A DNA stretch of 64,000 bases from NCBI GenBank assembly GCA_036245525.1, contig BTPG01000004.1, positions 213,549,751 to 213,613,750 of the forward strand, in the 5' to 3' direction. Below the pieces are notes generated by a model. It had not been told where the DNA came from, did not search any database, and saw nothing but the letters and a program-made list of their open reading frames with translations. A program made the position numbers and the translations under genes. Below are positions 436-63,870 of this stretch, piece by piece (position 1 is the stretch's first letter; each line of letters opens with the position of its first letter). Origin of the DNA: Semisulcospira habei (taxonomy: Eukaryota > Mollusca > Gastropoda > Semisulcospiridae).

Positions 436-640
436 GCTCGCTAAGCCCTGAGGCCGAAATTATCAAATTATGGCGATATCCTCCAAGGTCTGGTTCACAG
501 TTCTGGAGACGGTTCGACCGTGACAACTGAAGGGTGGTGTCGGAATAGCTTGGCGCCTCTAGGCGCCAAGCTATTCCGACACCAACCTTCAACTATATCA
601 CGGTCCACCCGCGTCCTGTTTATAGCGCGTCAGGGCTTTA
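436..640. mobile_element. Palindromic element, family A
   Basis: The core is an inverted repeat of about 45 bases per arm around GGCGCCTCTAGGCGCC, with arms containing AGCTATTCCGACACCA and GACCGTGA. The outer ends are also inverted: AAGCCCTGA on the left and TCAGGGCTT on the right. Other copies of this subtype, such as 5097-5309, show TTAA at both outer ends. Confidence 0.75.
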
Positions 641-1009
641 TGGGTTTTAATATGAATAAGGTAAATGCGCTGCAATGAGATAATACCTACCGTGTTTCAT
701 TTAACCAGAACAAACCACCCACACGGCGCCCATTCCTAAACTCAGAGCGTGCCTACCCCGAAATCCCATCTACCCTTTTACGTGGGTACCCACTTTGTCC
801 GTCCCCTGCACGGCAATAAGCCGATGACCTCAACTTGACAGATGTGAGGTCACGTCCATTTAAATACCTGCCCGTTAACCCGGAGTTTGAACACATGCCA
901 AGGCACCCCCCTCCCCCCCCCTCCCTCCCCCGCCTCGCCCCTCGTTTTATCTTAGCCCTTATCATGCGGAATATACCAGTGTGTGAAATAAGTTTGACTA
1001 AAATAGCTC

Positions 1010-1175
1010 AAGGGCAGTGTCAGAATAGCTTGGCGCCTCTAGGCGCCATGCTATTCTGGCACCACCCTTGAACTAAAGCCACTGGTCTATATCCTTATCT
1101 GCAAGTACTATAATGTAGCTTGCATATGGCAGTGTACAAATTTGAAGCTGTTAGCCTCAGTATGATATGGGTTAA
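1010..1175. mobile_element. Palindromic element, family A (left end truncated)
   Basis: The hairpin core at 1010-1074 has arms AGAATAGCTTGGCGCC and GGCGCCATGCTATTCT. The right flank ends in ATATGGGTTAA at 1172-1175. The same flank appears in reverse orientation in the copy at 4216-4376, so the two are the same subtype. The left terminal part is missing. Confidence 0.7.
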
Positions 1176-1203
1176 AGCCACCTAGTCGACACTAGAGGGT
1201 TAA

Positions 1204-1485
1204 TTGTTCGCACTGTCTCCTTTACAAATGTTCTTAGTTGTATGTCTTACAATAATGCTGGACAAAAGAGCGGACTTAAAAATTATGATGTCCGAGTGTT
1301 GTAAAATGAAAGACTTTTCTGCTCTTCTTCTCCTTTGTATGCAGGAGAGTTCCTTCCGTTACACTCTAAATGCGGTGGAAAACCTCTGGTTCGTGTGCCT
1401 ACACACATGGATTGTGAAAAGAAGGGTAGAGATGTCTTTTTTGAGGCAAGAGAACATTGATAACCCGTTGTATCGCGAATTTTAG
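1204..1485. repeat. Dispersed repeat fragment shared with 58850-58975
   Basis: A reading frame of 93 codons is open here, but I do not regard it as a gene. Its stretch encoding TIMLDKRA, together with the following pyrimidine-rich run and GAGTTC.TTCCGTTAC, recurs in reverse orientation at 58850-58975 with many differences. It is best read as repeat sequence of unknown class. Confidence 0.4.
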
Positions 1486-1704
1486 CAATCGAAGCCTGCC
1501 GTAAAGCAGATCGCTTTAAACATAATTTAGACCTCTTAACTCATTGATTTTCAAGTACATTGGCTGACGTTTTAATGGATAAGCGAAGAATGGATGATTG
1601 CAACTTATTAAACTGTATGCTGAGGGGTAAATCATACATATGTTTTAATTCCGTCGATTTAACATCATTCATTTACTTAATCATTGTCACTTATTCTCCA
1701 AGGG

Positions 1705-1790
1705 TTAACCCCTTGACTGCTACTGACGATACGGATCAGCGGACGCGTCTTTTCCGCTGATCGGTATAGTCAGCAGAAGTTCAGGGTCTA
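1705..1790. mobile_element. Palindromic element, family I
   Basis: It starts with TTAACCCCTTGACTGCTACT at the TTAA at 1705-1708. The centre is GGATCAGCGGACGCG..CGCTGATC, and the mirrored arm contains GTCAGCAG. Copies at 11536-11613 and split at 28790/31931 share the ends. The right TTAA is decayed here. Confidence 0.6.
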
Positions 1791-2056
1791 TTCCTTTGTA
1801 ATTCATTGTTGCTTTTGTGGAGTCGTCGTGTGCTGCTATGATATTGTATTTAACAGCTGTGTTCTATATCAAACAAGAAAACAAATGCATTTTTTCAAGA
1901 AAAAAAATCGCGTTGGTCCACATGTACCTGAAATGACTGATAATATCAGTCTGACCCAGGAGAGCCACACTGGCCATGGTGACACGACGATCTAGTGTAG
2001 GCAGGAACCAGGTTGTTGCATATGTGTAAAATATCTTGCGAAAACAATTTCTTACG

Positions 2057-2104
2057 AAACGGAATACCTACCCCTATCAAACGGAATACCTACCCCTATC
2101 AAAC
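2057..2104. repeat. 22-bp unit in tandem, two copies
   Basis: The unit AACGGAATACCTACCCCTATC with its preceding A is repeated directly with a period of 22 bases and then stops. Nothing coding is visible around it. Confidence 0.8.
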
Positions 2105-4064: not shown

Positions 4065-4073
4065 CTCGGCAGA

Positions 4074-5096: not shown

Positions 5097-5309
5097 TTAA
5101 CTCCTTACGCCCTGAGGACCGTCCGAAATTATCAAACGTTTGTAGATATCCTCTGAGGTCTATATCACAGTTCTGGAGACAGATCGACCATGATATTTCA
5201 AGGTTGGTGTCAGAATAGCTTGGTGCCTACAGGCGCCAAGCTATTCTGACACCAACCTTGAAATATCATGGTCGATCCACATCCAGTCTTTCAGGGCTTT
5301 ATGGGTTAA
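5097..5309. mobile_element. Palindromic element, family A, TTAA-bounded, 213 bp
   Basis: TTAA lies at 5097-5100 and 5306-5309. The inner ends are inverted (CGCCCTGAGG; TCAGGGCTTTATGGG). The core has arms of about 45 bases that include GATCGACCATGATATTTCA and its mirror, around TTGGTGCCTACAGGCGCC. No reading frame is present. The TTAA at both ends is what piggyBac-type transposition produces; the assignment to piggyBac is an inference. Confidence 0.8.
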
Positions 5310-5560: not shown

Positions 5561-5620
5561 CGGCAGCACTTTCTAGATGTAAATGTCTGGATTTTAAATT
5601 TCATCACTAGTGTGCGTCAG

Positions 5621-5785
5621 TGATTTTAGGGCTGTAATTTGATTTTAGGGCTGTAATGTGATTTTAGGGCTGTAATGTGATTTTAGGGCTGTAATTTGAT
5701 TTTAGGGCAGTAATTTGATTTTAGGGCTGTAATGTGATTTTAGGGCTGTAATGTGATTTTAGGGCTGTAATTTGATTTTAGGGCT
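5621..5785. repeat. 19-bp satellite, left block
   Basis: Tandem copies of TGATTTTAGGGCTGTAATG, with the last base G or T, give about eight units. The array resumes at 6080-6213 after a palindromic element, so it was one array before the insertion. Confidence 0.85.
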
Positions 5786-6079: not shown

Positions 6080-6213
6080 TGATTTTAGGGCTGTAATGTG
6101 ATTTTAGGGCTGTAATTTGATTTTAGGGCTGTAATGTGATTTTAGGGCTGTAATGTGATTTTAGGGCTGTAATTTGATTTTAGGGCTGTAATGTGATTTT
6201 AGGGCTGTAATTT
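6080..6213. repeat. 19-bp satellite, right block
   Basis: About seven further units of the same 19-base repeat as 5621-5785. The G/T variation at the last base is mixed in both blocks. Confidence 0.85.
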
Positions 6214-6860: not shown

Positions 6861-7074
6861 TTAACTCGCTCAGCCCAGACACACCACAACAAGACATGGA
6901 TGGGGCATGATAGTTCCAGGATGGTGCCAGAATAGCTTGGCGCCCATAGTCGCCAAGCTATTCTGGCACCACCCTGGAACTATCATGCTCGATCTGTCTC
7001 CAGAATTGTAATACAGTCCTTCAGAGGGCAACTTCAAAATGTGGGCATTTCGGTCCTGGGGCAGAATGTGCTAA
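6861..7074. mobile_element. Palindromic element, family A, 214 bp
   Basis: TTAACTCGCTCAGCCCAGAC begins at 6861. The hairpin core is GAATAGCTTGGCGCCCATAG with its mirror arm, and the right end is GGTCCTGGGGCAGAATGTG followed by CTAA at 7071-7074, a one-base decay of TTAA. Its length is the same as the copies at 20730 and 51079. Confidence 0.8.
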
Positions 7075-7107
7075 CTGCCTCAAAGTCGTAATAACTGTCA
7101 TGCTAAT

Positions 7108-8352: not shown

Positions 8353-8436
8353 AGATCATAACAAGATACGGTAAACTTCTGTTCTAACCAGGTCGGAAAA
8401 ATCGATAGCGAGATATGTAATTTGACTTTAGTGCGG

Positions 8437-8660
8437 TTATGTTTGCTACGAACGACTCCCAACAACGAACGAGAGCGACGACGCTTGTGCCATAAGCATA
8501 GACAACATTCTCAAACATCTCCAAGAGGCATAGATCCTCATGAGCCCTCCGGGCTCATGAGGATCTACGCCTCTTAGAGATGTTTGAGAGTTGTGTCTAT
8601 GCTTATGCGACTTCGCTCTAGTTCGTTGTTGGGGGTCGTTCCTTGCAAACGAAACCTCGC
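8437..8660. mobile_element. Long-armed family C palindrome
   Basis: The central hairpin CTCATGAGCCCTCCGGGCTC is extended by arms through CCAAGAGGCATAGATC, AACATTCTCAAACATCT and GCATAAGCATAGACA out to GAACGA.AACGAGAGC on the left and its mirror on the right. Each arm exceeds 90 bases. A sister copy lies at 9957-10202. Confidence 0.75.
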
Positions 8661-8790
8661 TGTTTCAGAGGTGCAGACGAAGTTGTTTCAATGGTGAATT
8701 ACTTCGCTTACAACGCACGTCGGATATAACAACATAAATGTGTGCCCCCTGGCGATCGTGTTATATCCAAAGTTAAAAAATCAATCCAGA

Positions 8791-9741: not shown

Positions 9742-9956
9742 GCAAGTCTATGTGAGTTCAGCATTACAATAACGATATCGCGAATAACGCGTTTGGACCA
9801 TATGGCTCCCGGGTACCGCGATATACTGAGGCTGACCTGTACATCTGCTGTTTTGCTGATATGACATTTGCTGTTTTGTATCAGGTACAAAGTCCGAAAT
9901 AACACACACAAATAACAAGCACAAAAGGGACCAAACGTGAGACTAGTAAAGTTTCG

Positions 9957-10202
9957 TTTGCAAAGAACAACTCCCAACAGCCAACGAGAGCAAAATCACG
10001 GCGGATATCCAGATTGTACCATAAGCACAGACAACACTCCAAACATCTCCAAGAGGCATAGATCCTCATGAGCCCAGGGGGCTCATGAGGATCTATGCCT
10101 CTTGGAGATGTATGGAGTGTTGTCCAAGCTTATGGCAGATGCTGGCTGTCAGCCAGGACTTCGCTCTCGTTCGTTGTATCGTCAATAGCAATCAAGGGGT
10201 TA
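9957..10202. mobile_element. Long-armed family C palindrome, TTAA on the right
   Basis: The core GGCATAGATCCTCATGAGCC/GGCTCATGAGGATCTATGCC is extended by CTCCAAACATCTCCAAG and AACTCCCAACAGCCAACGAG arms. The right end is CAATCAAGGGGTTAAC at about 10190-10203. It is the sister of 8437-8660 and lies 440 bases before the TRPV start codon. Confidence 0.75.
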
Positions 10203-10494
10203 ACACAACCATTATCTCAAAAACAAATACAAACATGCCAATTGTATAATCTTAATGTTTCAGAATGACGGCCTTTTTGCAGCGCGCCTACACGACAGCG
10301 GAGGATTTTCAAAGTTTAAAAAAAAAAAAAAATGTTTAAGCCGTGTTTGACAGTGCAAATTTATGTTTTGAAAACGAAGAGAGTGGCAAAGACCCCACGT
10401 GCAGCTGAGAACCCTTGCAGCACGACAGATATATTATAAAGTCATGTCCCACGTCTGATTGACGGGGAAGACTGTCACCCACGATAACTGCACC

Positions 10495-11056: not shown

Positions 11057-14000
11057 GTTGGTTTGGGTTTTGGACTACCCGTATCGTTTGTGGGAGCATT
11101 CCAGATAGACAAACTTGGGGAGAACGCCACGTGTATGCTTCCATTCAAATGAGATGCTTAAAATCTCATTTGGATAGATGGGTACTTGTGGCGTACACAC
11201 ACGCGCGGAGTGTGACACAAGCTAACTTCTATCCAAATGAGACGCTTAGCACACACTTTGAATAGAGGTGTACTTGTGGCGTGGACACACTCGGGGGGTA
11301 CGTCACAAGCACACTTCCAGTCAAATGAGATGCTTCGCATCTCATTTGACTAGAAGTGTACTTGTGGCGTACTCCCCCGTGGGTCTGTCTGAGGAGTGCT
11401 CCCGCAAACAAAACCGTACGAACATAGTTCAAAGAGTTGCAACCTAATAATCGCCTATGGTGTGGATAGTTTGCCCCGTATCGACGAAAGCGCTTTCCAT
11501 ATTGCATTACCTCAAGAAATAATGATTACCTGTGATTAACCCCTCGACTGTTACTGACGATACCGATCGGCGGAAAAGACGCGTAGTTACGTCAGTAGCA
11601 GTCAAGGGCTTACACTGGGTATTATTTGCTGTGGCCGGGCAGAGGTTAAACACTAGTTGAAACCTTCACTCGGAATCGAGATATACGTCCATTTTCAGCG
11701 ACCAGCTACCCCAAAGACTAAAGAAACCACTCTGCTTTCTTTTGTTCCCACACACCAGGCAGTGGGCCCACGGTTCGTAGCCACGGTGATGATGGGCGAG
11801 CTGCCCTTGTCTGTGGCGGCCTTGACCTTCAATCTGCCCATGGTGGACATTCTCCTGAGTCACGGGGCGCGCATCTACGCCACCAACTCAAACGGCGACA
11901 CCGTGTTCCACACCCTGGTGCGCTTCGCCGCCCTCTACCCGGAGAAGACGGCGGCGGTGGAGCAGATGATGCGCGAGGTGCACTCACGGCTCCAGACGCC
12001 GCCCGCAACCAGCCCGAGGTCGCCCCCTGGTCCGCAGGTAATTAAAATTTGTAAAGTGTATGGAAGCTCAACGCAGTCAATACGCTAAACTCCGACAACA
12101 GAAGTCCCAAATTTCGAAGTCGTCATTAATTAGTACATTGACTCGAGCCCTCGGGTTCACATTTTAAAATATGAAGTAATCCACTGGACACTTCATTGCA
12201 GTCATGAGACTGGTCAACAATGATAGTTCAAGGGTGGTGCCAGAATAGCTTGGCGCCAAGCTATTCTGGCACTACCCTTGAACTGTCATTGGGGAGCTGG
12301 GGAGCTCAGTCGGTAGAGTGTTCGACTCTCGTCCGAAAGGTCGTTGGTTCGAACCCAGCTGCGGTCAAAATGTGTACAGACCTCTTTTCGGTGCCCCGTT
12401 TTTGGCAAATACCTTTAGTGGTGGACAAAAGACGGTAAGCCCTCAACGTTTAACGTTTGTGAACCATCATAGTCGATCCATATCCTGTTTTATTTATTGT
12501 CTCAGGGCTGGATGAGATAAAAACGACTTCCAGCCACACAGGCCTAGCAGTGCAGCAAGATGTAAAGAGGCCACCCGTCAAAGGCGACCACTTTTTCACG
12601 GCACCTTCAGTGCACGCCCGCCTCACACACACTAGACTGTTCTCCCGTCTTTCTGTCTTGACCAGGCGGAACCCAAGGCCGTGTGGCTGATGGAGAACAA
12701 GGAAGGGCTGACAGTGTTGAGGCTGGCCGCGGCCCTGGCCCAGCCCTCGCTCTTCAAGCTCGTCTTGGGGCTGGAGGGCGTCTACTGTCAGCTGGACCAG
12801 CACGACGGCCTCTTCGACTCGCTCCTCTACGACGTCACGGAGATCGACCCGGTGGCCAAGCGCCGCTGGCACGAGGTCAACTCCGGCGGGCGGCGCAAGA
12901 ACGAGGTGGCACCGGTCAGGGCGGAAGGCATGGCGTCGCCGACCCACCAGCGAATGTTGGATGTCGGCTGCTGCCCGACTCTAGACACCCCTGCACCCTC
13001 CGCCACTAAAGGTAATTAATTTGGGCTTTTCCAGTTGTGAGATCAACCTGGAATTCAGTAATAGAGCCAACGCTGATTGACCACCTTTTTCTTTGCAAGG
13101 AGAGGGAAGTGGTCTTAAAAAACAGGTGCTCTCTAAAGAGAAGTCTTGAACGACAAAAGCGTCACCTTTCATGAAAAACCATCATTTAGGTGGCTACAGC
13201 CACGTAATTGATGGTCTTTAATGACAGGTGATCTCTTACAAGAGTGGTCGCTCCAAAAGGTTGGGTTTCAGGCGCATCTGAGGCCCACCTCATCCTGCCC
13301 TTTACAGATGCGATGTGATATCTATGAGAATGTCTCTTTTATAACGTTTCAAAATTTAGCACTGAGGTACAAAGTGCAAAATTTGGGAAAAATTCATAAA
13401 GACTTCAAGACAGATAGACCAAGGCAGGTCAAGGTTGGTGCATGAACATCTTGCCACAAAACGAGCAGCTCGGCGACAGAAAAGGAGATGGGGGGGGGGG
13501 GGGGGGACTCATAAGGATCTATACCTCTTGCAGCTGGGCTGTACCTGTACCTGTACTCAATGCTCCTGGGCAGTTCACGAGATAAGATTTCACTAGCAAC
13601 ACTTATAACACCAAACGAATCTAATACTATTCCACTTATTTCCACAGGGGGGAGGTACCCATCAGAGGGCGGGGGCCGTACCGCGTCAGTCCTGGAGATC
13701 ATCTGCGAGACGGGGCGCGTGGAGAAGGCCTTCGAGATCCTCAATACCTACGTCGTGCGCTCCATCGTCAAAAACAAGTGGCAACACTACAGGTAAAGCG
13801 TACTCAGACGATGGTTCCTTTGTTGCCGATCATGCGAGATTAGCTTGGTTGGTTAATTCGGGGTTTAATAATAATAATAATAATAAAAAATAATTACGGT
13901 ATTTATAATGCGCTTATCTTATAATAATTATAACTCTAAGCGCGCACTTACAACTCGCGCACGCAAGCGCACGCTTTGGACAATGACTCACGTACCACAA

Positions 14001-17000: not shown

Positions 17001-20000
17001 ATGCCACCCCCTCTGGAAGCACGCGGGAAGGAGGCCAGGCGGTAGCCACTCGGAGTGACGCTGCCGATGATGGGTTCATCGCCAGCTGAGCGGAGCCACG
17101 TTTCGGTGATCACGACAACATCTAACGTCTACGGTACCTATTTGATCATGGACGGCCCAAACGGGCGGGTAAAGGGGGGGGGGGGGGGGAGAGACGGGGA
17201 CAGGGATAGCTGCTGCCTCTGGAGTACGACCTGAACACTGACCCATTCAGGCGCACCGCATTGATTTACCAGGACCTTTCAACGGACATGCTGTACAGAG
17301 CGACCCAGTCTTTTTGCCTGGGCGTGATCACGCGAGAGAACCACGAGCGGCTTAAAACTAGGCCTAGGCCATCTCTTTAACCCCTTTGGCTGTCGGTCGC
17401 GCATTTTGTCGAGGTGATTCCTGCAGGAACCACCTGGACAAAATGCGTGACCGACAGCCAAAGGGCTACATTTCCAAACTGTACGTTGACAAGAACAACG
17501 AGTGAACTTTCTGCCTGCAGATTGTGGTTCATCGGCTGGGCCATTGTCCACGTTTTACTCATGGCCCTCCTGACTGCCTACGCCATCTTCAAAGCCAGGG
17601 CCATCAGCCACAGCCTCGTTCCACCAACACCACCAGCGAACGCATCAACGGCCTCCCCGCCCGTCACCCACACCTCGGAGGAGACGTTCGTCACCGTGGC
17701 GGCGTGGCTGACGCTGCCGCTGTCGGCGGTGGTGGTGGTGTGGGAGGTGATGCGCGTGGTGCGAGGTCAGCCGCTCAACCTGTGGCTGATTCACCACAAT
17801 GGGCTGTACAGGGTGGAGCTGGTGGTCTTCGCGCTCAGTCTCTTCATCGACACAGTGTGGTATGTGCGTGTATTCAACATGCCCAAGGGCACGAGCTGCT
17901 CCGCTAGCAGCGGTAGAGATGCGTGTAATCTCAGCGAAAGTTGCTGAAGGGAAAATTTTGAGAAATTAACACTTTCATCGTCGAGAAAAACTTGACCGGG
18001 GCCCACCTGCAAGAGGCATAGACCCTCAAGAGCCCCCGCAGTTGCGGGGGCTCTTGAGAGTCTATGCCTCTTGCTGAAAACATGCGTGTTCCTTTTGAAG
18101 GCTAGGGACCTTTAACATTAGATTCACAGTGATTTTAACCCATTACAGCCTGAGGCTCATTTTTTATTAAAAATGCTTATTGTCCTATTGGGGTTACATA
18201 AGTACATTACAGATTAGGACTAGTAAATAAATCAACCATTCTGGTTCAAGGGTGGTGCCAGAATAGCTTGGCGCCCGAGGCCAAGCTATTCTGGCACCAC
18301 CCTTGAACTGTCATAGTGAAATTAATTTCAAGCTGTAGTGTATCAGGATGAAAAGGGTTAACGAAACAATCTGTGTGACAATGACAGGTTTAACGTCACT
18401 CTTTGGCAGGTACTTGAGCAAAGGTCCGGACAACAACCACTTCCTGGTGCTGGCCCTGCTGGTGGGCTGGTGGTTCACCACATTCTTCCTACGCCCGCTC
18501 AAAAAGTTCAGCTTCTTCACCGTCATGCTGCAGAAAGTCCTGCTCGGGGACATGCTCAGGTGATGCAACCAGACAGACCTCTAACAAACCAAATACGTGC
18601 CCAAAAAGTAATGCAACCACACAGATCTCTCACACACCAAATAAAGGCCCTGGTGATGCAGCCACACAGACCTCTCACAAACCAAAAATACATGCCCAGT
18701 GCAAAAAGTTGAAGTGACTGAAATGGTACGCAGACAACCGGTCATTATATCTCATAACCCATGGCCGGCAAGAGGCATAAATTCCCATGAGCGGCTCATG
18801 GGAATTTATGCCTCTTGTAGATGGAACAGGCTGCCTGAAGGGGAAGCTTGCTGTCTGAACCCAAAAGCTGAAATTCAGCTATCTATGATTTTGAAAAAAA
18901 ACTGAAGCAGTCTCTGGCTTCTCAGGACTGAACACTGTCACCCATGCAGTTAGGTGCCGGGGCAAACGCCAGCATAAATACCGTGAGGAATTACTCAGCG
19001 CTGGACAGTAGCAGATCAGTCAGCGCTGGACAAACAAGCAGTTGGGGCGTCTATTGCTGAGTAATTCCCCCTGTTATGAGTACATAGACCGCCTACACAT
19101 GGGCGACTGTCCAAACATTCGACATCACTGAAGAAAAGTCCACGGGCTGCCTTACCTATGTCCAGCTATGGTGAAGGGACAATTAGTTGTTCATACTACC
19201 TTTATTTCCAAAGCAAACTGAAAGGGTTGGCTCAGCTTAAATCAATGAGTCTGAATGATTTTACCAAACGAAGAACCCATAGTCTTTACAATGCCTCAAT
19301 GTGGGAAAACAACCAGATGGATCATGACAGTTAAAGAGTGAAGCTAAATTAAATAGCGTGGCGGTTCTAGGAGGGTTTTTGAAATGTACACACAGTGACT
19401 AAAACGATTAAGCCTTTGGCTGTTGACAGCACTTTTTGTGGCGATGATTCCTGCAGGAATCGATGCCACAAAACACGCTACCAACAGCATAAGGCATAGG
19501 TGCCACAATAACGCCTAGATCTACATCCACAGATTTTCAGCCATAATCTTGCTGGAGCTGCTGGCCTTTTCTGTGGCCATGTACATCACGTATCTACCAT
19601 CGACGGAGCCTCTCCCTGAGGAGTTCGAGCACCTGGGGGTAACCTGCATGACCATGTTCAACCTCATGCTGGGACTGAGCGAGCTGGGAGTCCTGTACTC
19701 AGCGCCTACTCCATGGCTGGCGATACTGCTCTTTATCTTCTTCATTTTGCTGACGTACCTGCTGATGCTGAATGCTCTCATAGCCATGATGTCCAACACT
19801 TGCTCCCTTGTCTCCGAGAACAAGGTAAAGTTCACACCACTTAACCCTTTGGCTGTAGGTAGCGGTTTTTGTCACGATGATTCCTCTAAGAATCATCATG
19901 ACAAAAACCGCTACAAACAGACAAAAGGGTTAAAATTTCCCTGCCACTGGATGCACATTCTGTTTCTGAAATCTCTGTTCAATCAACGACCAAAAGCCAC

Positions 20001-23437: not shown

Positions 23438-23491
23438 TTAACTCATTCGCGGCCAGCCGCATCCGGATGCGGCTGGCCACGAATGAGCTAA
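23438..23491. mobile_element. Palindromic element, family D, 54 bp
   Basis: TTAACTCATTCGCGGCCAGC..GCTGGCCACGAATGAGCTAA is a nearly perfect 54-base palindrome centred on CATCCGGATG. One base of the right TTAA is changed. Confidence 0.85.
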
Positions 23492-24359: not shown

Positions 24360-24549
24360 TTAAGCCCTGAGGAGGACTTTGTACAATTTTGGACTATCTC
24401 AGTGTCATCGAGACAGATTGCCCATGATATGTCAAGGGTGTTGTCAGAATAGCTTGGCGCCTGGACGTGCCAAGCCATTCTGACATCACCCTTGAACCAT
24501 CATGGTTGATGAATATCCTGTCAAATCGTGTCAGGGCTTTATGGGTTAA
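24360..24549. mobile_element. Palindromic element, family A, TTAA-bounded
   Basis: TTAAGCCCTGAGGAGGAC at 24360 and TCAGGGCTTTATGGGTTAA ending at 24549. The core is decayed (GGCGCCTGGACGTGCC). The right TTAA is shared with the next element. Confidence 0.75.
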
Positions 24550-24690
24550 CCCATTTAGCCCCAGCACCTTAGGCGCCAAGCTAATCTGGCATTACCCTTG
24601 AATTATCATGGTCAATCCATCTCCTGTAACTGGCACATAGTCGTTACACTTCCAAAAGTTGGGAAATGCGGCCAGGGGGCTAAAAGGGTC
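24546..24690. mobile_element. Truncated family A element sharing TTAA with its neighbour
   Basis: TTAACCCATTTAGCCCCAGC leads directly into the second arm GGCGCCAAGCTAATCTGGCA and the right flank GGGAAATGCGGCC. The left arm of the hairpin is missing. It lies against the 3' end of the last seen CUB exon. Confidence 0.65.
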
Positions 24691-24909
24691 AAGTATGATC
24701 AAGTTTGCTCATACCTGGATTAGTCTCTCCGCCCGTCTTTGTGATGTTGAGCGTGGCATTTGGCAAGTTGAACTGCTGGAAAGACAAGGCCACAATGCCC
24801 GTAGCATTCTCACTCGAAGAGTATGTGCACACAAACCCTGTTCTGTTCGACAGGTAGAATGGTGACCGCACCAGGGAAGCTCGGTCAAAAGGAAACTTTT
24901 GCTCACATT
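24689..24909 (-). CDS. CUB gene exon 5: start of a second CUB domain
   Basis: The acceptor is TTGTTCTTTCAG. It encodes CEQKFPFDRASLVRSPFYLS and GFVCTYSS, the CUB pattern with SP.Y and two cysteines, then IVALSFQQFNLPNATLNI. A donor AATCCAG|GTATGAG at 24715/24714 would leave phase 1; without it the frame stops at 24691-24689. Confidence 0.7.
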
Positions 24910-27900
24910 CTGAAAGAACAAAATAAAGCCTTTTTACATACATCTGATCTTAGGCTGTATTTCTAAATAGCATCGCAGTAGGCGACATGGCACAAAAGTA
25001 GCTGAGCAGGAGAAGAAAAATTGCTTTGTGTGTTTCACTATAGTAGTGCGAAAGGTGTCATTGCTTAGAATTGTTGCGATCTGTTGTCGCATATGGAAAA
25101 CCATGTTATCTTCACAGCGAAAATGTGGCTGAATTGCCTTTAAATCACTTGATGGGGAGATAAAATTTTGTCACACCGCAATCATGCCACTGTCACGTCA
25201 AACATAATTATGTAAACGCCCGTTCTTTATTTCTATGTTCTCGATTCGTGTTGCTGTCACCACCGCTTTTGTGTTGCTGTCATGCTACTATGTGGACACA
25301 ACCCCTCTTAGACAGCTAGAGGCGTAGATTCTCATGAGCCCCTGCAACTGCAGGGGCTCATGAAGATCTATGCCTCTTTTGGATGGCATGAGATGGTCTG
25401 CATACATAAGTCTATACAGACATGAAAAGAAGTAATTCACAGGCTCACTCTTAGTACTGTAGTCCACAATCATGGTGCTTCCTGTGTTGTTTGCCGACAA
25501 CATCACTTCAACGTAGGCTGTTGGCGCACTGATCACAACCAAGAATGGTTCTGTAACAAAGTTTTTCATTTTAATATGGATAACTAAGTATCATGCACAC
25601 GTACACACATACACATGACTGAGGAAAAGAGGGCCAAATGCCTGGTTGTCTAGGTTGTTTGACATCGGAGTGCACATTTTTCTCAAATATCTCTCACAAA
25701 AAAACACTTTTCTATACAAATCTTAGAAGAAGTATCATTCAGTGACAGTTGACCTAATATGATTTACTTATAAGAAACTCAAACAATGTGTCAGGTTTGC
25801 TGTACAGTCGTAAAATTTCAGAATCTTTTCATGAAATGACTAATTTTATATCCCTGAATGTGCCCCAGATATATTAAACCCAGTATAAGATACATCCATT
25901 TTCACATGAATGAGCAAGCTGATGAAGTGTTTAAACCTGAAACAGTGCAGGCATACATGAAGTCTGCAAGCTTGACCTAGATATTGAAATCTGGCCGTTT
26001 CCCGTCAGGGCTCTATTAGGGTATTGAAAATGGCTTGTTCTTGTCTTTTCACCAATTGTGTTTTTACAACTATACAGCAACATCAACAAATCATAGAAGT
26101 TATGAAAAAATAGCCTATATTAGGTCAACTGGCACTAAATGATATTTGTTCTTAAAGTGGTACAGAAAAGTGTTTCTTTGCAGAGATATTTGCAAAAAAT
26201 GATGTGCACTCCGATGTCAAACGGTCTATATTAAACATCCCAAACGCCAGCAATGCACGTGAAAATAACAAACAGAACATTCAATGTTTATCGTCAGCCT
26301 GTCTTAAAAAAAATTCCCCCCTTTCAATTACTCACCGCTGCTGCCGGTGATATTCGACACAGGGATGTTGGTCTTGTTCTCATTGTCATAAAAAACAACG
26401 TAGTCTGTCTTCTGCATCATCAGTTTGGAGATGAGGAGAGAGGTGTATTTGGTGGTGGTGTCTCGCATGATGGTGAAGTTACACGCGCCCATCTGGAGGT
26501 TATTTGGAAGGACGATCGTTCCTGTTACGTTACTGAACACACCACCACATGGACTTTCTGGGGCAGCTGAAAAGCGGCAAGTAAATAAATGAAAGACAGT
26601 AAACTTTGCATATAACAAGTCGCATGGGGACGCAAATTTTCTCCTTGTTATATAATCAATGTTATGCTATAAGCCAGTTAACCCCTTTAACCCCAAGGCC
26701 GGATTTCCCAAATTTTAGAGGTGTCACCAAAGAGTGCCAGATTAGCTTGGCGCCAAGCTAATCTGGCACTACCTTTCAATTATCATGGTCGATCAATCTC
26801 CTGCTGTAGTGCGTCAGGGCTAAACGTCTTGAAAAAGTGAAAAGCTGTTTGTAATGAAAATAGTGCTGTTATATAATCAGACTTCTGATATATCCGACAA
26901 GCAAAGGCAACTGTAAAATAAATAAATAAACATCTCCCTTCACTCAATGCCATCCTCTTCACTAATCAGAAATATAAACACCAACCAACTGCAAGAGTTA
27001 CGCAGGCTTATAAGAATCTATGCCTCTTGGCGAAACCACCTGTGAACTCTGTTCCTTTTGGTGGCTGGGGATCACCGACACAGCATTTACAATTTCAAAA
27101 ATATGTAATATCCACTGGCAGTGAATGGTTTCACCCGTTTAGCCCCAACGCACTACAGCAGGAGATGGGTCGACCATGATAATTCATCGGTAGTGCCAGA
27201 TGAGCTTGGCGCCTGATGGCGCCAAGCTCATCTGGCACTACCCTTGAATCATCATGGTTAATCCATCTCCTGTTACTGGTAAACAGTTGTTAGGTGACAC
27301 CCCAAAAATTTGGGAAATACAGCTATGGGGTTAAATAGGGTGAAGGCAGCGTCTTCTTTCACACAGACTGTATCAACAACTCGAGTTTCAGTCAAACTGA
27401 ATGAACCGGATATAGCATAACAGCAACACCTTACCTGCACTGTCTGTCCGCATAAAAGGCAGTACACCTGAAAACAGTATAAAAAAAAGGGTCATTATGA
27501 CAGTGCGCATGTGTTGAAAGGGAAAGTGCAGTGCTGGTACACTTCAGCTGCTTCAGAGAAATCTGGTCTACGTTAAACATGAGTTTCCATATAGTGACAT
27601 GACTATGGTGCAGTCGGAGACATGTGTTTCTGTACAGCAGCATGGCCGGCATAATCATGCCCCTATTTAAGTTATTTAATTTGTTTAAAAAATTGGTCGT
27701 GTACTGAAAGCCAGGCTTTATTCACTCACTGCAGAACTATGGTGGACCTGTTATTGCTCAATGGGGTGATACAATTTTGTCATGTTGTTGTTGCCTGCCA
27801 TTCCACTTTCTCATTCTTTACTGATACATGTATTTCTTGATTTTTATCACTGTTGCCTGGCTATATGGATTAACTCATTTGCAGCCAGCCGCATCCGGAT

Positions 27901-28094
27901 GCCCAGCTTATGCCGCACATCCGGATGTGGCTGCCCACAATTGAGTTAAGCACACCTTCAGTCAATTACATCCCATATGTACACAAATTAACAACAAGCC
28001 TCACATTTAGACTTTGTAAGAAATCAACAACAAAAACCTCACCTGCTACAAAAGCAAATGCAGCCACCAACATCCGTCTGCCTGAAGAACGCAT
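24689..28094 (-). CDS. Secreted CUB-domain protein, five exons seen (whole gene)
   Basis: Exons from 5' to 3' are 28094-28043, 27467-27435, 26566-26336, 25550-25449 and 24909-24715 or 24689. All introns are phase 1, as is common for shuffled extracellular domains, and all have GT-AG ends. The product starts with a hydrophobic signal peptide (MLVAAFAFVAG), then one complete CUB-like unit (Cys-x21-Cys) and the first half of another (Cys-x25-Cys). Many N-glycosylation sequons (NVT, NFT, NKT, NIT, NNT, NRT, NAT) support secretion. CUB domains mediate protein or sugar binding outside the cell; the partner is unknown. If the last exon reads through its donor, the protein ends at 24689 after 212 residues. 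If not, at least one more exon is missing. Confidence 0.7.
25310..25385. mobile_element. Palindromic element, family C, in CUB intron 4
   Basis: AGAGGCGTAGATTCTCATGA and TCATGAAGATCTATGCCTCT flank GCCCCTGCAACTGCAGGGGC. Confidence 0.7.
25449..25550 (-). CDS. CUB gene exon 4: second half of the first CUB domain
   Basis: The acceptor is ACTTTGTTACAG. It encodes PFLVVISAPTAYVEVMLSAN and STMIVDYSTK. The short beta-strand-rich segment fits the C-terminal half of a CUB fold. The donor is CTAAGA|GTGAGC, phase 1. Confidence 0.7.
25654..26232. mobile_element. Inverted-repeat element of about 575 bp in CUB intron 3
   Basis: The left arm TTTGACATCGGAGTGCACAT at about 25658 and the right arm ATGTGCACTCCGATGTCAAA ending near 26222 are mirrored. 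Each arm runs about 115 bases to CAGTTGACCTAATAT and ATATTAGGTCAACTG. The 340-base interior has no open frame of note. It is a typical non-autonomous DNA-transposon layout, not one of the TTAA families. Confidence 0.75.
26336..26566 (-). CDS. CUB gene exon 3: first half of the first CUB domain
   Basis: The acceptor is CCGCTTTTCAG. It encodes PCGGVFSNVTGTIVLPNNLQ, matching the CUB opening CGG..., and ACNFTIM with the second Cys. Four N-glycosylation sequons are present. The donor is GCAGCG|GTGAGT, phase 1. Confidence 0.8.
26678..26830. mobile_element. Palindromic element, family A, in CUB intron 2
   Basis: TTAACCCCTTTAACCCCAAG begins at 26678. The core AGATTAGCTTGGCGCCAAGC is a palindrome with no spacer. 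The left arm is shortened, and the right end GTCAGGGCT lacks TTAA. Confidence 0.7.
27129..27334. mobile_element. Palindromic element, family A, in CUB intron 2
   Basis: CACCCGTTTAGCCCCAACGC on the left, hairpin GCCAGATGAGCTTGGCGCC with mirror, and ATGGGGTTAA ending at 27334. Confidence 0.75.
27435..27467 (-). CDS. CUB gene exon 2: 33-base microexon
   Basis: The acceptor ACTGTTTTCAG and donor GTGCAG|GTAAGG are both strong. It adds VLPFMRTDSAG after the signal peptide, keeping phase 1 on both sides. It is too short to be found by length, but the phase match on both sides supports it. Confidence 0.65.
27870..27949. mobile_element. Palindromic element, family D, 80 bp, in CUB intron 1
   Basis: TTAACTCATTTGCAGCCAGC at 27870 and CACAATTGAGTTAA ending at 27949, with GCATCCGGATGCC and ACATCCGGATGTGG inside. 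The length equals that of 63791-63870. Confidence 0.8.
28043..28094 (-). CDS. CUB gene exon 1: signal peptide
   Basis: ATG at 28094 starts MRSSGRRMLVAAFAFVAG: two or three basic residues followed by a hydrophobic core. The donor is GTAGCAG|GTGAGG, phase 1. A second ATG at codon 8 could serve equally. Confidence 0.7.
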
Positions 28095-31956: not shown

Positions 31957-32178
31957 ATAACCCCTTCACTGCCAAGAAAAAATGACTACCATGTATGCTA
32001 CTGCCAAAGGCATAGATCCTCATGAGCCCCAGCAATTCAAGAATTGCGGGGGCACATGAGGATCTATGCCTCTTGCTCAAACCACTTTGTATCCATCGTT
32101 CATGAGATGGCTGGAGGTCTTTTGCGTTGAACAGACTTGAGACGTACAATGTACGATCAGTGGCAGTAAAGGGGTTAA
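31957..32178. mobile_element. Palindromic element, family C, full length
   Basis: TATAACCCCTTCACTGCCAA on the left and GTGGCAGTAAAGGGGTTAA on the right. The central hairpin has GGCATAGATCCTCATGAGCC with mirror. The left TTAA has an inserted or changed base. Confidence 0.8.
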
Positions 32179-47745: not shown

Positions 47746-47844
47746 AGCTCTCCTAACAATCGTTATTACCCTTTAAAGGACATAAAAATACATTTATATT
47801 TTTGTGTTTTGACAAAACACCCTCTCTTGTCTGCAGCCCTATGC

Positions 47845-48043
47845 CCTACTGCATGTGATGGATCGACCATGATAATTCAAGAGTAGTGCCAGATTAGTTT
47901 GGCGCCAGAAGGCGCCATGGGTAATGCCAGATTAGCATGACGCCTTCTGAATTATCATGGTCAATATATTTCCTGAAATAGTACATAGTCGTTTGGTGAC
48001 ACCTCCAAAATTTTGGAAAAACAGCAATGAGGTTCAATGGGTT
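47845..48043. mobile_element. Palindromic element, family A (rearranged)
   Basis: TTTGGCGCCAGAAGGCGCC is followed by a second AATGCCAGATTAGCATGACG segment, so the right arm has been altered. The outer flanks GATGGATCGACCATGATAAT and AATTATCATGGTCAATA are intact. Confidence 0.65.
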
Positions 48044-48965
48044 ATAAAGCCAAAAGCATGTTTGAAGGGTTACAAATATCCACAGATTTGTAAAGGCTAG
48101 CCATTTCTGCAGCGAACAGTCAAACTGAGACTGACGTGCACTCGCAGGTTTTGATTATACAGCATCACTCAAATTGCAGCCTCATGCCACATTTGTTATT
48201 CAAAATCTTTTACGGTCATTCGCACTGAAAACAAAAAAAACATGTGGGGGCCCAAAGGACATTTTCTTTAGTATTGTAATCGTTCTGGAGATGCTTTCTG
48301 CACCCATAACTGAACAGCCAAGCTCTGTGTTGTCAGACAGCCTGTTGTAAATTACTGTAGCATGTATTCCTAATTTTGTGGGCAGGCTCATATTTACTTT
48401 GTCCTGAAACTGTACTGGGATTCTATTAAAATTGTTTAATATACATCACCGTTTCATGAAATAATTGTAAAATCAGCATGTGGATACATGCCTGTGTTCT
48501 TTCATAATAATGTAATAGTGAGCCAATTTTATCCATGTCATATGCCTTCTTACGGACCGTGTGCGCACAACCACAAAACCCATGTAGATTGACTTAAACC
48601 CTCTTGTGCATGCAGCCACCAATATCTCAAAACACCCAAAATGCAAGTTAAGACTGATTTCGTGAGAGAGGGTCACTAATGGTGAATGCATGCAAGAGAG
48701 GCCGGGTTAAGTGCTGTAACAAGAACCCTCAATGTACAGAGGAAACAACGTACAGCAAAAGAAAATACCTCTAAATCTGAAGTGCTTACTTCCCTTAGAC
48801 CACATACTGGTTTAGAAGTGAATATTTAGTTTTCTGACAGAATTATTTTAATCACTAAAGAAAATCACATTTTCAAAATCATATGTATATAATGCAGACC
48901 TTTGTATAGAGAGAGTTAAATGTCATACATGTGAACAAATATTTTAAAACTCTTTGGTGAATGTA
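48044..48965. other. Interval with nothing recognised
   Basis: AT-rich sequence with only short frames on both strands and no splice-supported exon, repeat or hairpin that I can identify. Confidence 0.5.
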
Positions 48966-49054
48966 TTAACCTTTTGGCTGTCAGTAGTGCTTTTAGTCTC
49001 TGTGCTTCCTGCAGGAATCATGAGGAACGGCACTACCGACAGCCAAAAGGTTAA
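48966..49054. mobile_element. Palindromic element, family B, TTAA-bounded, 89 bp
   Basis: TTAACCTTTTGGCTGTCAGT at 48966 and CCGACAGCCAAAAGGTTAA ending at 49054. The centre CTTCCTGCAGGAATC is intact; the middle of the arms has diverged. Confidence 0.85.
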
Positions 49055-49499: not shown

Positions 49500-49705
49500 T
49501 TAACCCCTTCCCTGTCACTGGACGTGCATTTTGTATCTGAAATCATTCTTCATTGAACCACTAAAAGCCATAACCGTTCAAGGATCAGGGATACAAATTG
49601 GTCTCAGCAAGAGGCATAGATCCTCTTGAGCCCCTGCACCTGCCTCTATCTATGCCTCTTGCAGTTGGATTGTGTACACCTTTCCCTTGGCAGTCAAGTG
49701 GTTAA
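49500..49705. mobile_element. Palindromic element, family C, TTAA-bounded, 206 bp
   Basis: TTAACCCCTTCCCTGTCACT at 49500 and GGCAGTCAAGTGGTTAA ending at 49705. The hairpin right arm is partly deleted (CACCTGCCTCTATC). Confidence 0.75.
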
Positions 49706-51078: not shown

Positions 51079-51292
51079 TTAACTCATTCAACTCCGACAC
51101 GCCACTGCAAGACATGGATCGAGTGTGATAGTTCAAGGGTTGTGCCAAAATAGCTTGGCACCCATAGGTGCCAAGCTATTCTGGCACAATCCTTGAACTA
51201 TCACGCTCGATCTGTTTCCAGAAGTGTAATACAGTCTTCAGGAGGCAACTTCCAAATTTGCGGATTTCGGTCCTGGAGCAGAATGTGTTAAA
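51079..51292. mobile_element. Palindromic element, family A, TTAA-bounded, 214 bp
   Basis: TTAACTCATTCAACTCCGAC at 51079 and CAGAATGTGTTAA ending at 51292. The core is AATAGCTTGGCACCCATAGG with its mirror. Confidence 0.85.
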
Positions 51293-58760: not shown

Positions 58761-58969
58761 GTCCCAATCCCAGCATGTCAGTGACTCAGCCTACGCACAC
58801 GTACCAGAGGTCGTATCAGTTCCCGGCACTGCCGTTTGAGCCGGCGTAACGGAAAGAACTCACCTGCGTTTGAAGGGGAAAAAAAGAAGAAAAGCCTTTC
58901 GTTTAAGACATTCAGATTTCTTATTTTAAAGTTAGCCCTTTTGTCCAGCATTATCGTAGAATATACTAC

Positions 58970-59173
58970 GAACGCACTACAGCAGGAGATCATGGTCGAC
59001 CGTGGTAATTCAAGGGTAGTGCCAGATTAGCTTGGCGCCTGTCGGCGCCAAGCTAATCTGGCACTGCCCTTGAATTATCATGGTCGACCCATCTACTGCA
59101 ACACTGAGGTGTATAGTCGTTAGATGACGCCTCCAAAATTTGGGAAATACGTGCGTCAGGCTGAATGAGTTAA
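58970..59173. mobile_element. Palindromic element, family A
   Basis: AGATTAGCTTGGCGCCTGTC and its mirror, arms extending to CATGGTCGACC. The right end CAGGCTGAATGAGTTAA is at 59157-59173. Confidence 0.8.
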
Positions 59174-60194: not shown

Positions 60195-60418
60195 GCACGT
60201 TCACTGCCAAGAAAAACTTGAAATGAACACCACACTACTGCAAGAGGTATAGATCCTCATGAACCCCCGCAATTGCGGGGGCTCATGAGGATCTATGCCT
60301 CTTGCTGAAACGAATTTCTATCCTTTTTTCATGGGACAGCCGGAGCTATGCTTTTTCGCGTTGAATTTACACAGATTTCAGACGTACAATGTCAGTACAG
60401 TGGCAGCGAAGTTGTTAA
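60195..60418. mobile_element. Palindromic element, family C, full length
   Basis: GTTCACTGCCAAGAAAAAC on the left and GTGGCAGCGAAGTTGTTAA ending at 60418. The central hairpin GAGGTATAGATCCTCATGAA..TCATGAGGATCTATGCCTC surrounds CCCCCGCAATTGCGGGGG. Confidence 0.8.
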
Positions 60419-60640: not shown

Positions 60641-60825
60641 TTTTGTTTCCCGGCAAATTTGTCTGATGGCAAGTTCGTACGCTGAATATTTCATAGTTTG
60701 GTTATATGCCGATTCAGTTTCACTTCGTGATTTTTCTTGTTTCATGTCACGGCGTTCGTTTTCTGGGATTTCGGACGTATAGTATTAATGCTGAATAAAA
60801 CTGACTGTGCGCTAGTTTTTAAAAC

Positions 60826-61026
60826 CCAAGGTCGCATTTCCCAAATCTTGGAGGTGTCACTTAACGAATGAGTACCAGATGCAGGAGATGGATCGATCTT
60901 GATAATTAGTCAAGGGTTGTGCCAGATTTGCTTGGCGCCTGAAGGCGCCAAGCAAATCTGGTACAACCCTTGAATTATCATGGTCGATACATCGCCTGCT
61001 GTAGTGTGACGGGGCTGAATGGGTAA
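60826..61026. mobile_element. Palindromic element, family A
   Basis: GCCAGATTTGCTTGGCGCCT and its mirror GGCGCCAAGCAAATCTGG. The outer arms GGAGATGGATCGATCTTGAT are intact; terminal TTAA is not. Confidence 0.75.
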
Positions 61027-61257
61027 ACACTGATTCTGTTTGAAATTATGATTCTTCAAACAGTAATCATTTCATTACAAAAGGCCGACCTTTCGTACCA
61101 GCTGATGATGGAGCGAGTAAGTGTCTGCACTGATTTAATGATCATGAGAGAGTAATTGCCGGGTGAGTGACTGATCGCGACTGTGGCTGTCGTGGGACCG
61201 AAGACGTATTGCTAATAGGGATGGTAGGCTGCAGACAGGTCCCTTTTGGCGGGTAGA

Positions 61258-61385
61258 AAATAACTCAACGAAGAAAGAGGCACACATAGAAAAGCCAGTC
61301 GACTGTCTTTTCTAAGCGTGCTTCTTTCTTCGTTGTATGCGCCTGGGAGTCACTTTTTGGGTCTGGTTTTCGGTGGGTAGACGAC
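61258..61385. mobile_element. Short family F palindrome
   Basis: CAACGAAGAAAGAGGCACAC and GCGTGCTTCTTTCTTCGTTG are mirror arms around AGTCGACT. GGGAGTCACTTTTTGGGTCTGG follows, as in the other F copies. Confidence 0.65.
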
Positions 61386-61574
61386 CGGCCCGCGCCGTGG
61401 TGGAACTGACGGTAAGATGGATGAATGAATGGGTGCATGTAGAGAGAGAGAGAGGGGGTAGTAATCCAAGAAAGACTCGATCAATACGCAACTTCATTTG
61501 GGAAGTCGGCCCTTAAAAAAACCCACACCATAATATAACGACTTCTTTTTTTTTTTTTTTTTTTTTTTTTGCAG

Positions 61575-63307
61575 AGTTTTACATCTGTGGCTGTACGGTG
61601 TGCCTGGTGATGTTTATCGTAACCCTGGGACTGGGGACAAAATACTCCGTTGTGCGACACTCGACACCAACATCGCCGACAGCCGTGTCGACACAGATCC
61701 TGGCAGGCGATGCCAACATCATGTTGTACAGAGTTGCTGGCCTTGCTGGAAAAGTTGCCTCTGGAAAGGAGGAACAGTTAGACAGAAACATGAGAAAAAA
61801 AATTGTGGATGAGTTTGTCGATATGGGGAAACGTATATCTAAAGACAATGATCTAAATTCAGGTATAGTTAGAAAACAGCCGCATATTGAAGACAAACCT
61901 ACAGACAACAGGCACTCTCAAGTGGACATAGGTAGCAGGTCATCTTATCCAAAGCCACGTGCAGTCAAAGAAAAATCGCGCCTTGAAATCAATCCACCAG
62001 ACAATAAGCGCTCTCAATCGGACTTCACAAATTACCGGCAATTACGTCGAGTTTCAAGAAATAAAATTCCGTTAGAAGTAAACTCTGGAGAAGGAAAACT
62101 TGCGACAATTGTCAGAAACGAAACGCAGCTTCAAACGAACTTTGGAGATGGCGAGCTGACTGATGAAAACAAGAATCTGTCCATCACGAACCGTACATCA
62201 CCAGGAAATTCGCTTACTTTGAAATCACACGCTGCTGAAGACAACAAGAATGACGCAGATACAACCAAGGTTTTAGTAAACAGCAAGCAAGTAATCGCTG
62301 ATTCAAAGAATGTACAAAGAAATGAAAATTTTTCTACAGATCCTCCAGTTCTGACAGTAGCTGTCACTACTATCAGAACTAGAGGATCTGTAGAAAGATC
62401 ACCAGCAGCATCATCTACGATCTCCTCCTTGGGCACAACCACCCAGACTTTGATCACCGGTCCACGCCTGATCTGCCATGCTCTGATAGGTCGCCTGGGG
62501 AACCAGCTGTTTCAATACGCCAGTATTTTAGGACTGGCATATTCCATGAACCGGACCGCGGTGTTCAGAGTCCCGCCGGACAGACACGAGATCCGTCTGG
62601 ACTCCGTGCTGAAGACTTCCACCCAGCACCCGGCACAGCTGCAACAGGAGTACGAGGCCAGGTGCGACAAGACCCGGTATTCGCAACACGAGAATGGGAA
62701 GTGCTGCATGTTTGCAGAACAAATAGCGACGCTTGATCCACGATATGACTACAACGTGGGCGGGTATCTACAGTCGTGGAAATACTGGCAAAAACACGAG
62801 GCGCGGGTCAAACACATGGTGGAATTTAACGATTTTGTAAAGAAGAACGCGTCTAACATTGTAACGCATCTCAGACGGACTTACAACGGCTCCACACTGG
62901 TAGGATTCCATCTTAGACTGGGCGACATCCTGCAGCAGTTTAATATAGACCTGGGCTACAAGCCGGCCACCCCGCGGTATATCAACACGTCTTTGGAGTA
63001 TTTTCACCGCAAGTTCCCGCAAGCCGTGTTTGTCGTCGCTAGCGACAGTATCCAGTGGTGCCGGCAACACCTACCGCCAGAGTACACGTACCATTTCTTG
63101 CAGCACAACTGGGCTCCGGTAGATCTTCTTGTGTTAGCGTCTGTCGACCACCTGATTACGTCATTCGGAACGTATTCTTGGTGGGCGGCCTACCTGAAGA
63201 ACAAAGGCACCGTGTTATACATGGAAGACTTTATCGTTCCAGGTACTTTCATAGGTAACCAGTTCAACAGGACAGACTTTATACCGCCTGGATGGATGCC
63301 TTTGTGA
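61575..63307 (+). CDS. GT11 alpha-1,2-fucosyltransferase-like protein, last exon
   Basis: The exon follows a long T run and GCAG, and enters in phase 1 with AG completing a codon. It encodes FYICGCTVCLVMFIVTLGLG, a type II signal anchor, a low-complexity stem of about 260 residues and a catalytic domain. Motifs are GRLGNQLFQYA, GFHLRLGD (family usually H.RRGD), VFVVASDSIQWCRQHL and LITSFGTYSWWAAYL, the GT11 motifs in order. Members transfer fucose from GDP-fucose in alpha-1,2 linkage to galactose in the Golgi. Sequons NRT, NAS, NGS and NTS support a lumenal domain. It stops at 63305-63307. The start codon is probably on an unseen upstream exon; ATG at 61610 would cut the anchor. The stem is unusually long compared with vertebrate FUT1/FUT2. 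Confidence 0.85.
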
Positions 63308-63312
63308 GTCAC

Positions 63313-63365
63313 ATAAACACATTCGCGACCGCGCAGCCGGATGCGGTTGGCCGCGAATGAGTTAA
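63313..63365. mobile_element. Palindromic element, family D, first of a chain of four
   Basis: TAAACACATTCGCGACCGCG and GGTTGGCCGCGAATGAGTTAA, centre AGCCGGATGC. It begins six bases after the fucosyltransferase stop. Its right TTAA (63362-63365) is shared with the next element. Confidence 0.75.
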
Positions 63366-63579
63366 ACCCCTTCTCTGCCACTGTACATACATTTTTGTTT
63401 CTGAATCTTGGTGCATTTAATAACTAAAAGACCCTAACCGTAAAAGAAACATGGATACGAATTGGTCTCAGCAAGAGGCATAGATCCTCATGAGCCCCCG
63501 CAGTCGCGGGGGCTCATGAGGATCTATGTCTCTTGCAGATGAATTACGTTTACTTTTTTCCTCGGCAGTGAAGGGTTAA
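63362..63579. mobile_element. Palindromic element, family C, second of the chain
   Basis: TTAAACCCCTTCTCTGCCAC at 63362 and CGGCAGTGAAGGGTTAA ending at 63579. The hairpin GAGGCATAGATCCTCATGAG with mirror surrounds CCCCCGCAGTCGCGGGGG. Confidence 0.85.
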
Positions 63580-63794
63580 CCCTTCGCTGCCGAGATAAAG
63601 TGACAACACCAACTGCAAGAAGCATAGATCCTCATGAGCTCCCATAGACGCGGAGGCTCATGAGGATCTATGCCTCTTGATTGTCCTACTTTGCATTGCA
63701 TCCGTGTTCCTGGGACGGGTGGGTTTCTTTCACGCTGACTAGTTTTCGGTGATTGTTTAACACAACCTGTGGCCACTGGCGGTGAAATTATTAA
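63576..63794. mobile_element. Palindromic element, family C, third of the chain
   Basis: TTAACCCTTCGCTGCCGAGA at 63576 and GGCGGTGAAATTATTAA ending at 63794. The orientation of the outer parts is opposite to that of the neighbour. Confidence 0.85.
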
Positions 63795-63870
63795 CTCATT
63801 CGAGACGTGCCCCCTCCGGATACGCGGAAGAAGCCTCGCATCCGGAGGCGGCACGTCTCGAATGAGTTAA
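63791..63870. mobile_element. Palindromic element, family D, 80 bp, fourth of the chain
   Basis: TTAACTCATTCGAGACGTGC at 63791 and GCACGTCTCGAATGAGTTAA ending at 63870, with CCTCCGGAT and ATCCGGAGG inside. Its left TTAA is shared with the previous element. Confidence 0.9.

Follow-up and report, generated by a model that had tools for sequence, protein, structure and literature searches.

Two questions are raised by a stretch of 64,000 nucleotides of the gastropod Semisulcospira habei (assembly GCA_036245525.1, contig BTPG01000004.1, positions 213,549,751 to 213,613,750), hereafter the window: by what means did several families of palindromic elements come to have similar TTAA ends, and why do the elements stay palindromic? 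The original prediction held that five unrelated families, A, B, C, D and I, are palindromes over their whole length, begin with TTAACCC, TTAACTC or TTAAGCC, end in the mirror image and were spread by one or a few piggyBac-type transposases encoded elsewhere in the genome. As a whole, the observation was partly confirmed and the interpretation partly supported. Judged by sequence, the families are probably non-coding miniature inverted-repeat transposable elements (MITEs) of the piggyBac type, a known kind of element that is present here at high density. The two arms of their palindromes stay alike as copies diverge in families A and C, and more weakly so in family D.

Hairpin families and their TTAA ends

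End motifs were counted on both strands and compared with 100 third-order Markov surrogates of the window. TTAACYCNTT occurred 32 times with 1.3 expected, and no surrogate held more than four. TTAACCC (36 seen, 7.6 expected) and TTAACTC (19 seen, 7.6 expected) were enriched, whereas plain TTAA was at chance with 634 occurrences against 632 expected, equal to 317 sites. The four control motifs TTAAGGG, TTAAGRG, TATACYC and AATTCYC had counts under expectation. TTAAGCC as the third predicted end type was rejected. It was seen five times with 5.5 expected; among these sites, 19408 is a changed end of family D and 24360 a changed end of family A. The elements 5097-5309, 19841-19933, 49500-49705 and 63791-63870, put forward as examples, were checked in the sequence and carry TTAA at start and end.

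In the window, 57 places matched the five hairpin families. Searches with 12 seed sequences found 22 of family A, 18 of C (two of them inside elements of other types, F and G), eight of D, six of I and two of B, and a short D-like element at 21104-21175 completed the total. The 57 places take in partial or weak matches, for example at 13518, 20240, 28660, 59565 and 63347; further weak A-type matches at 12459-12519 and 53912-53989 were left out of the count. An ungapped census with a score of at least 14 gave 34 hairpins in the window and 0, 0 and 0 in three surrogates. On folding, 10 of 10 representatives beat all 200 shuffles, with z-scores of -6.4 to -17.8. Ends at 56 hairpin centres were scored against TTAACYCNTT, a match being at least eight of nine informative bases (null rates 2-8%). 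Matches were found at 59 of 112 ends, with about 7 implied by the null rates. By family, these were 27 of 44 ends in A, 11 of 36 in C, 10 of 16 in D, 9 of 12 in I and 2 of 4 in B.

The claim of whole-element palindromes held for D and I and roughly for B, but A and C consist of short inverted ends around a central hairpin. Family D (TTAACCCTTTGGCTGTC...) was palindromic end to end or nearly so, with 89-93 bp in three copies, as was family I (TTAACTCATTCG...) with 54-80 bp. Family B (TTAACCCCTTGACTG...) was roughly an end-to-end palindrome, with an arm complementarity of 77%. Family A, with ends like TTAACYCNTTNNGCCC, had outer arms that are unequal, with a hairpin of about 96 nt between them, and the ungapped core measured 96 nt in three copies of 213-215 nt. 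Three of four intact A copies were 213-227 bp long and the fourth 190 bp. In family C, many copies have CTGCC or CTGTC after the TTAACCC end; the outer arms are unequal, and the hairpin between them measures about 66 nt. The intact copy 49500-49705 comprised 206 bp, and two others of about 218 nt had an ungapped core of 66 nt. Across family A as a whole, the palindrome is better conserved than most of what lies outside it. Eleven of the 16 listed A copies were aligned and evaluated in windows of 20 columns; the four core windows had a mean pairwise identity of 0.75-0.85. Nine of the twelve outer windows ranged from 0.51 to 0.67; the first, which holds the end, reached 0.79, and two gappy windows 0.70 and 0.73.

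The target site was characterised in ten copies of 72-227 bp with both TTAA intact, using 12 bases on each side. Mean pairwise identity was 0.262 outside TTAA, near chance, and 0.474 inside. The inner bases followed the pattern C-Y-C-N-T-T: of the 20 ends, 19 have C at position 1, 18 have T at position 5 and 17 have T at position 6. No fixed base stood beside TTAA, and the duplication therefore appears to be TTAA only; a check set in advance revealed no extension of the flanks past TTAA in the ten copies. One TTAA was common to neighbouring elements at 24546 (A/A), 63576 (C/C), 19930 (D/C) and, with one extra A, 63362 (I/C). A C and an A element join at about 27127, where TTAA is changed, and a C-type match that lacks the outermost 39 positions adjoins the A element at 18135. 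The junction motif GRGTTAACYC was seen four times with 0.16 expected; at 1702 and 57786 the left neighbour was not identified. A considerable part of the 317 TTAA sites consists of element ends, so such chains may arise by chance, and a preference for the ends of other elements as targets is not claimed.

Proposed mobilisation of the elements and possible exchange of hairpins

With random sequence outside TTAA and C-Y-C-N-T-T inside, mobilisation by a TTAA-specific, piggyBac-type transposase was the best reading, as had been proposed, although the CTC ends deviate from the hallmark. The ends resemble the piggyBac end motifs CCCTT, CCCAT and CCCTC (PMC10813416) and the printed piggyBac-type ends of AmiPB4, CCCATTCCCTGCCACA, and CMITE VI, CCCTTTCACTGCCA (PMC2872659). 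The hallmark, CC[C/T]T or CCCTT/CCCAT/CCCTC, was present in D, in C and in part of A. D ends read CCCTTT or CCTTTT and those of A CCCATA, CCCATT or CCCTTT, while C ends read CCCTTC or CCCCTT, the latter with C as the fourth base. The elements were also short and non-coding, as is typical of MITEs, with the ten intact copies spanning the lengths given above and one I copy measuring 54 bp.

In the proposed process, at least one TTAA-specific transposase encoded elsewhere would recognise the short ends, made up of TTAA, CCC or CTC, a single free base and TT. This enzyme would excise the element and reinsert it at another TTAA, in some cases the one at the end of another element. The latter event would produce chains with one common TTAA, of the kind seen at the junctions. 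The long palindrome between the ends can occur with different arms and ends, as is the case for the C hairpin.

Several results count against this process. Family I (CTCATT) and the CTC ends of A (CTCCTT and CTCACT) miss the printed CC[C/T]T hallmark; for these, a second, related transposase is therefore possible. A tblastn search of the window with the T. ni piggyBac protein yielded chance matches only (best E 1.1), while the same query retrieves piggyBat (9c0f) in PDB with E 1.3e-31. No transposase domain was found by Pfam in the 50 open reading frames (ORFs) searched of the 68 in the window with at least 100 amino acids. In addition, both flanks matched no other copy in 7 of the 18 C-core hairpins, and the ends of these were at chance, with 1 of 14 scoring at least 8. 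The C hairpin at 13518 has one arm and one unmatched flank, and the one at 20030 lay outside this flank comparison.

Sola3 targets TTAA, and mobilisation by this or another TTAA-specific superfamily, Kolobok, was considered highly improbable. Kolobok likewise produces TTAA duplications and is present in molluscs, but its termini are 5'-RR and YY-3' (PMC9587614), whereas 19 of the 20 ends here have C as their first base after TTAA. Kolobok-type starts were not enriched, with TTAARRR at 99 against 106.9 expected and TTAAAGG at 12 against 12.3. Kolobok was excluded on these termini.

The hairpins of the families differ from one another, but calling the families unrelated was too strong, because the C hairpin is common to C elements and to the two F/G elements, in which it lies between palindromic arms that do not resemble C flanks. 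The G element carries a B-type TTAA end. With the C hairpin in C elements, F/G elements and lone places, hairpins and ends look partly exchangeable, by analogy with the CMITEs of corals. It is quite unlikely that the C hairpin spreads by itself, as a mobile or recurrent module, independently of the TTAA ends. Its presence in C elements, within F/G arms and in the seven places with both flanks unmatched would fit such a module, but decayed flanks would give an identical picture for the lone cores. Matches to the F/G seed profile extend beyond the core by about 40-60 nt at 59565 and slightly at 25348, and some of the lone cores may therefore be F/G copies that have decayed. Several lone cores have the string GATGG just outside, and neither an insertion boundary nor a duplication was seen.

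Coupling of the hairpin arms

Arm divergence within copies was determined for 12 A and 11 C copies and compared with 20000 arm re-pairings. In family A it was 0.064 within a copy versus 0.138 across arms of different copies, and in family C 0.088 versus 0.155. Within-copy divergence was thus about half the between-copy value, and 0 of 20000 re-pairings were as low in either family. Hairpins with a single arm or a rearrangement were set aside before matched changes were counted, which left 13 of 22 in A, 14 of 18 in C and 6 of 8 in D, with 5000 shuffles for comparison. The same non-consensus base stood in both arms at 22 sites in A (1.1 if independent; shuffled mean 5.6, maximum 16), at 16 sites in C (1.5 if independent; shuffled mean 2.9, maximum 12) and at 11 sites in D (1.7 if independent; shuffled mean 4.5, maximum 12). 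An independent count on 10 A cores of equal length gave 10 double-changed pairs, with a shuffled mean of 3.5 and 0 of 500 shuffles as high. Slid controls on these cores gave 0-2 pairs. Two points speak against coupling throughout: the D count lies within the shuffle range (11 against a maximum of 12), and the alignment is uncertain near the tips of the hairpins and in the most decayed copies (22262, 49010 and 19454), which may add or hide matches.

The likeness of the arms is most likely maintained by arm-to-arm templated copying upon hairpin extrusion or by selection for pairing. Templated copying has slightly less than an even chance of being among the causes. Template switching has been published as a source of multi-base compensatory changes in RNA genes (PMC8794818). 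Part of the coupling pattern could come from selection for pairing or from inheritance within subfamilies.

A purely inherited pattern, in which arm co-variation mirrors subfamilies whose sources differ in both arms, is rather doubtful. Seven of the 37 distinct matched changes were common to two to four copies, family A has subgroups defined by flanks, and sister copies of single-copy changes can be hidden by the 64-kb sample. However, the other 30 were confined to one copy here (8 of 13 in A, 11 of 13 in C and 11 of 11 in D), and subfamilies leave unexplained how both arms of a source first gained the same change. Selection for hairpin pairing, either as RNA (a small-RNA precursor) or as DNA needed for transposition, would also lead to compensatory changes. 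The better conserved A core and the very stable stems of the 10 of 10 folded hairpins are consistent with it, but as an explanation it is unlikely. A Rfam search of the window gave no hairpin family at the gathering score, its sole match being one tRNA, and several copies have an arm lost, inverted or broken. One arm was lost around 24569, 28394 and 32489, and the right arm of the A copy 47835-48050 scored 33 as reverse complement and 13 forward, and is thus inverted in place. In the closest trio, subgroup A1, between-copy divergence was similar in core (0.11-0.16) and flank (0.12-0.22), albeit in small numbers, and the arms of each copy differed by 0.067.

Beyond templated copying as one cause, a broader proposal is offered tentatively and with a minority chance: palindromic TTAA MITEs would record hairpin-templated mutation, with strand switching copying changes from arm to arm and thereby keeping palindromes almost perfect as copies diverge, cores swapping between families and arms sometimes inverted or lost. 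If true, full-length palindromes would be the steady state of this process and not a requirement of the transposase. Arm coupling is the part worth following. If the density in the window is typical of the genome, very many copies of the same few hairpins would be present, a natural experiment for measuring, in an animal and separately from RNA selection, how fast one arm is corrected from the other by templating.

Genomic setting and relation to known systems

Table 1. Positions, strand and features of the palindromic elements in the window
Element	Positions	Strand	Features
A	5097..5309	-	TTAA at both ends; ungapped core hairpin 5182-5277
A	434..649	-	Tetranucleotides at ends changed
A, subgroup A1	6861..7075	+	Right TTAA changed
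A	18135..18361	-	TTAA at both ends; abutted by C-type match 17973-18136 (without outermost 39 positions)
A, subgroup A1	20730..20944	+	Core hairpin 20768-20863
A	24360..24549	-	TTAA 24546-24549 common with next element
A	24546..24692	+	Left hairpin arm lost
A	27127..27334	+	C copy 26969-27130 abuts left end at changed TTAA
A	47835..48050	+	Right hairpin arm (about 47915-47950) reads inverted in place
A, subgroup A1	51079..51291	+	TTAA at both ends
A	58930..59173	+	Core hairpin 58994-59089; 46-nt arms, 93% complementary
A	60816..61030	-	Sequence match to family A
C	49500..49705	+	TTAA at both ends; central GCAAGAGGCATAGATCCTC hairpin, tip degraded
C	63362..63579	+	TTAA common with I copy on left (one extra A) and next C copy on right
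C	63576..63724	+	Short arm and core
C	31958..32177	-	Sequence match to family C
C	60200..60417	-	Sequence match to family C
Lone C-core hairpin	18768..18818	.	Flanks unlike those of any other copy; several paired substitutions
F	8430..8661	+	Palindromic arms unlike C flanks; C core hairpin central; no TTAA end seen
G	9950..10203	+	F-type arms, C core hairpin; right end of family-B type, TTAACCCCTTGATTGCTATTGACGATA
D	19841..19933	.	TTAA-to-TTAA palindrome
D	17377..17468	.	Right TTAA changed; four paired substitutions in this copy only
D	48966..49054	.	TTAA at both ends
Short D-like	21104..21175	.	TTAA at both ends
I	63791..63870	.	80-bp palindrome, TTAA at both ends
I	27870..27949	.	TTAA at both ends
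I	23438..23491	.	54-bp palindrome including TTAA and changed CTAA end
B	1705..1796	+	Left end GGGTTAACCC; left neighbour not identified
B	11536..11613	+	Sequence match to family B

The window has 45.7% GC and contains ORFs for the reverse transcriptase and endonuclease of long interspersed nuclear elements (LINEs). The best LINE database match was a JGI contig, with 81% over 49% of the query. The ORF at 61598-63307 carries a GT11 fucosyltransferase domain; the best of its three database matches, at 36% identity, came from the gastropod Gigantopelta aegis. Upstream of this domain, a 66-nt hairpin at 62331-62396 lies inside the open frame. The ORF 19549-20025 had a weak match to an ion-channel domain (PF00520, residues 5-90, 25.7 bits against a cut-off of 25). 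It continues into the D element at 19841, which may therefore sit just inside the next intron. The tRNA match by Rfam, 12295-12367 with 36.2 bits, adjoins a family A hairpin; ARAGORN with the bacterial code found no tRNA.

Further repeats were present. A 19-bp minisatellite (GTGATTTTAGGGCTGTAAT) at 5563-6271 is broken by a palindrome whose 108-nt arms are 98% complementary and separated by a 44-nt spacer, and a shorter, related hairpin was found at 61266-61335. We take the combination of minisatellite and palindrome to recall the tandem-repeat-bearing Helitron-like elements of bivalves. A strong 70-nt hairpin (GTCCTCGGCCAGCCACTAAGCAAGGTGCTC...) of no recognised family lies at 22344-22413, near a lone C-type hairpin, and nested direct and inverted repeats with an 88-nt unit surround CAAATGAGATGCTTAGCATCTCATTTG-like palindromes at 11117-11377. 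Exact-pattern searches gave no match for the C core, D end and A core in viral_contigs, for the C core in genome_contigs and for one I element in phages; records of the window's own genome were possibly excluded from these collections.

Literature on palindromic TTAA MITEs and on compensatory change, with partial coverage, brought up the CMITEs of the coral Acropora; none of the results named arm co-variation in MITEs. CMITEs likewise have TTAA duplications, CCC-type ends, tandem copies and ties to piggyBac-like elements (PMC2872659). Several of their terminal inverted repeat (TIR) families have a common interior that is better conserved than the TIRs (PMC2872659). A similar organisation was seen here with the C core inside both C and F/G elements; the ends of F were not found. 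CMITEs comprise about 100 bp with TIRs of 13-14 bp, whereas the elements described here have long hairpin cores and some are end-to-end palindromes. A term search of the available CMITE text (PMC2872659) returned no mention of palindrome, hairpin or secondary structure. Tandem arrays of CMITEs were ascribed to replication slippage (PMC2872659), in contrast to the chains in the window, which mostly join different families through one TTAA. The elements extend this coral precedent of TTAA MITEs with a common interior and different ends, and bear on how one transposase can carry many families. PALTTAA, a Repbase name, denotes palindromic elements with TTAA duplications in Caenorhabditis elegans, a likeness by description only.

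The ends agree with those of the piggyBac superfamily in TTAA, the CCC start and TIRs of at least 4 bp (PMC10813416, PMC11707139). In piggyBac, the ends hold 19-bp palindromic sequences, asymmetric from the tips and bound by the cysteine-rich domains of both monomers (PMC10813416, PMC11707139). The palindromes here are central and span 38-117 nt, unlike the 19 bp near the ends of piggyBac. As in hairpins maintained by template switching, multi-base compensatory changes keep the stems paired (PMC8794818). That case concerns RNA genes, whereas the elements in the window are non-coding and their pairing may lack an RNA function.

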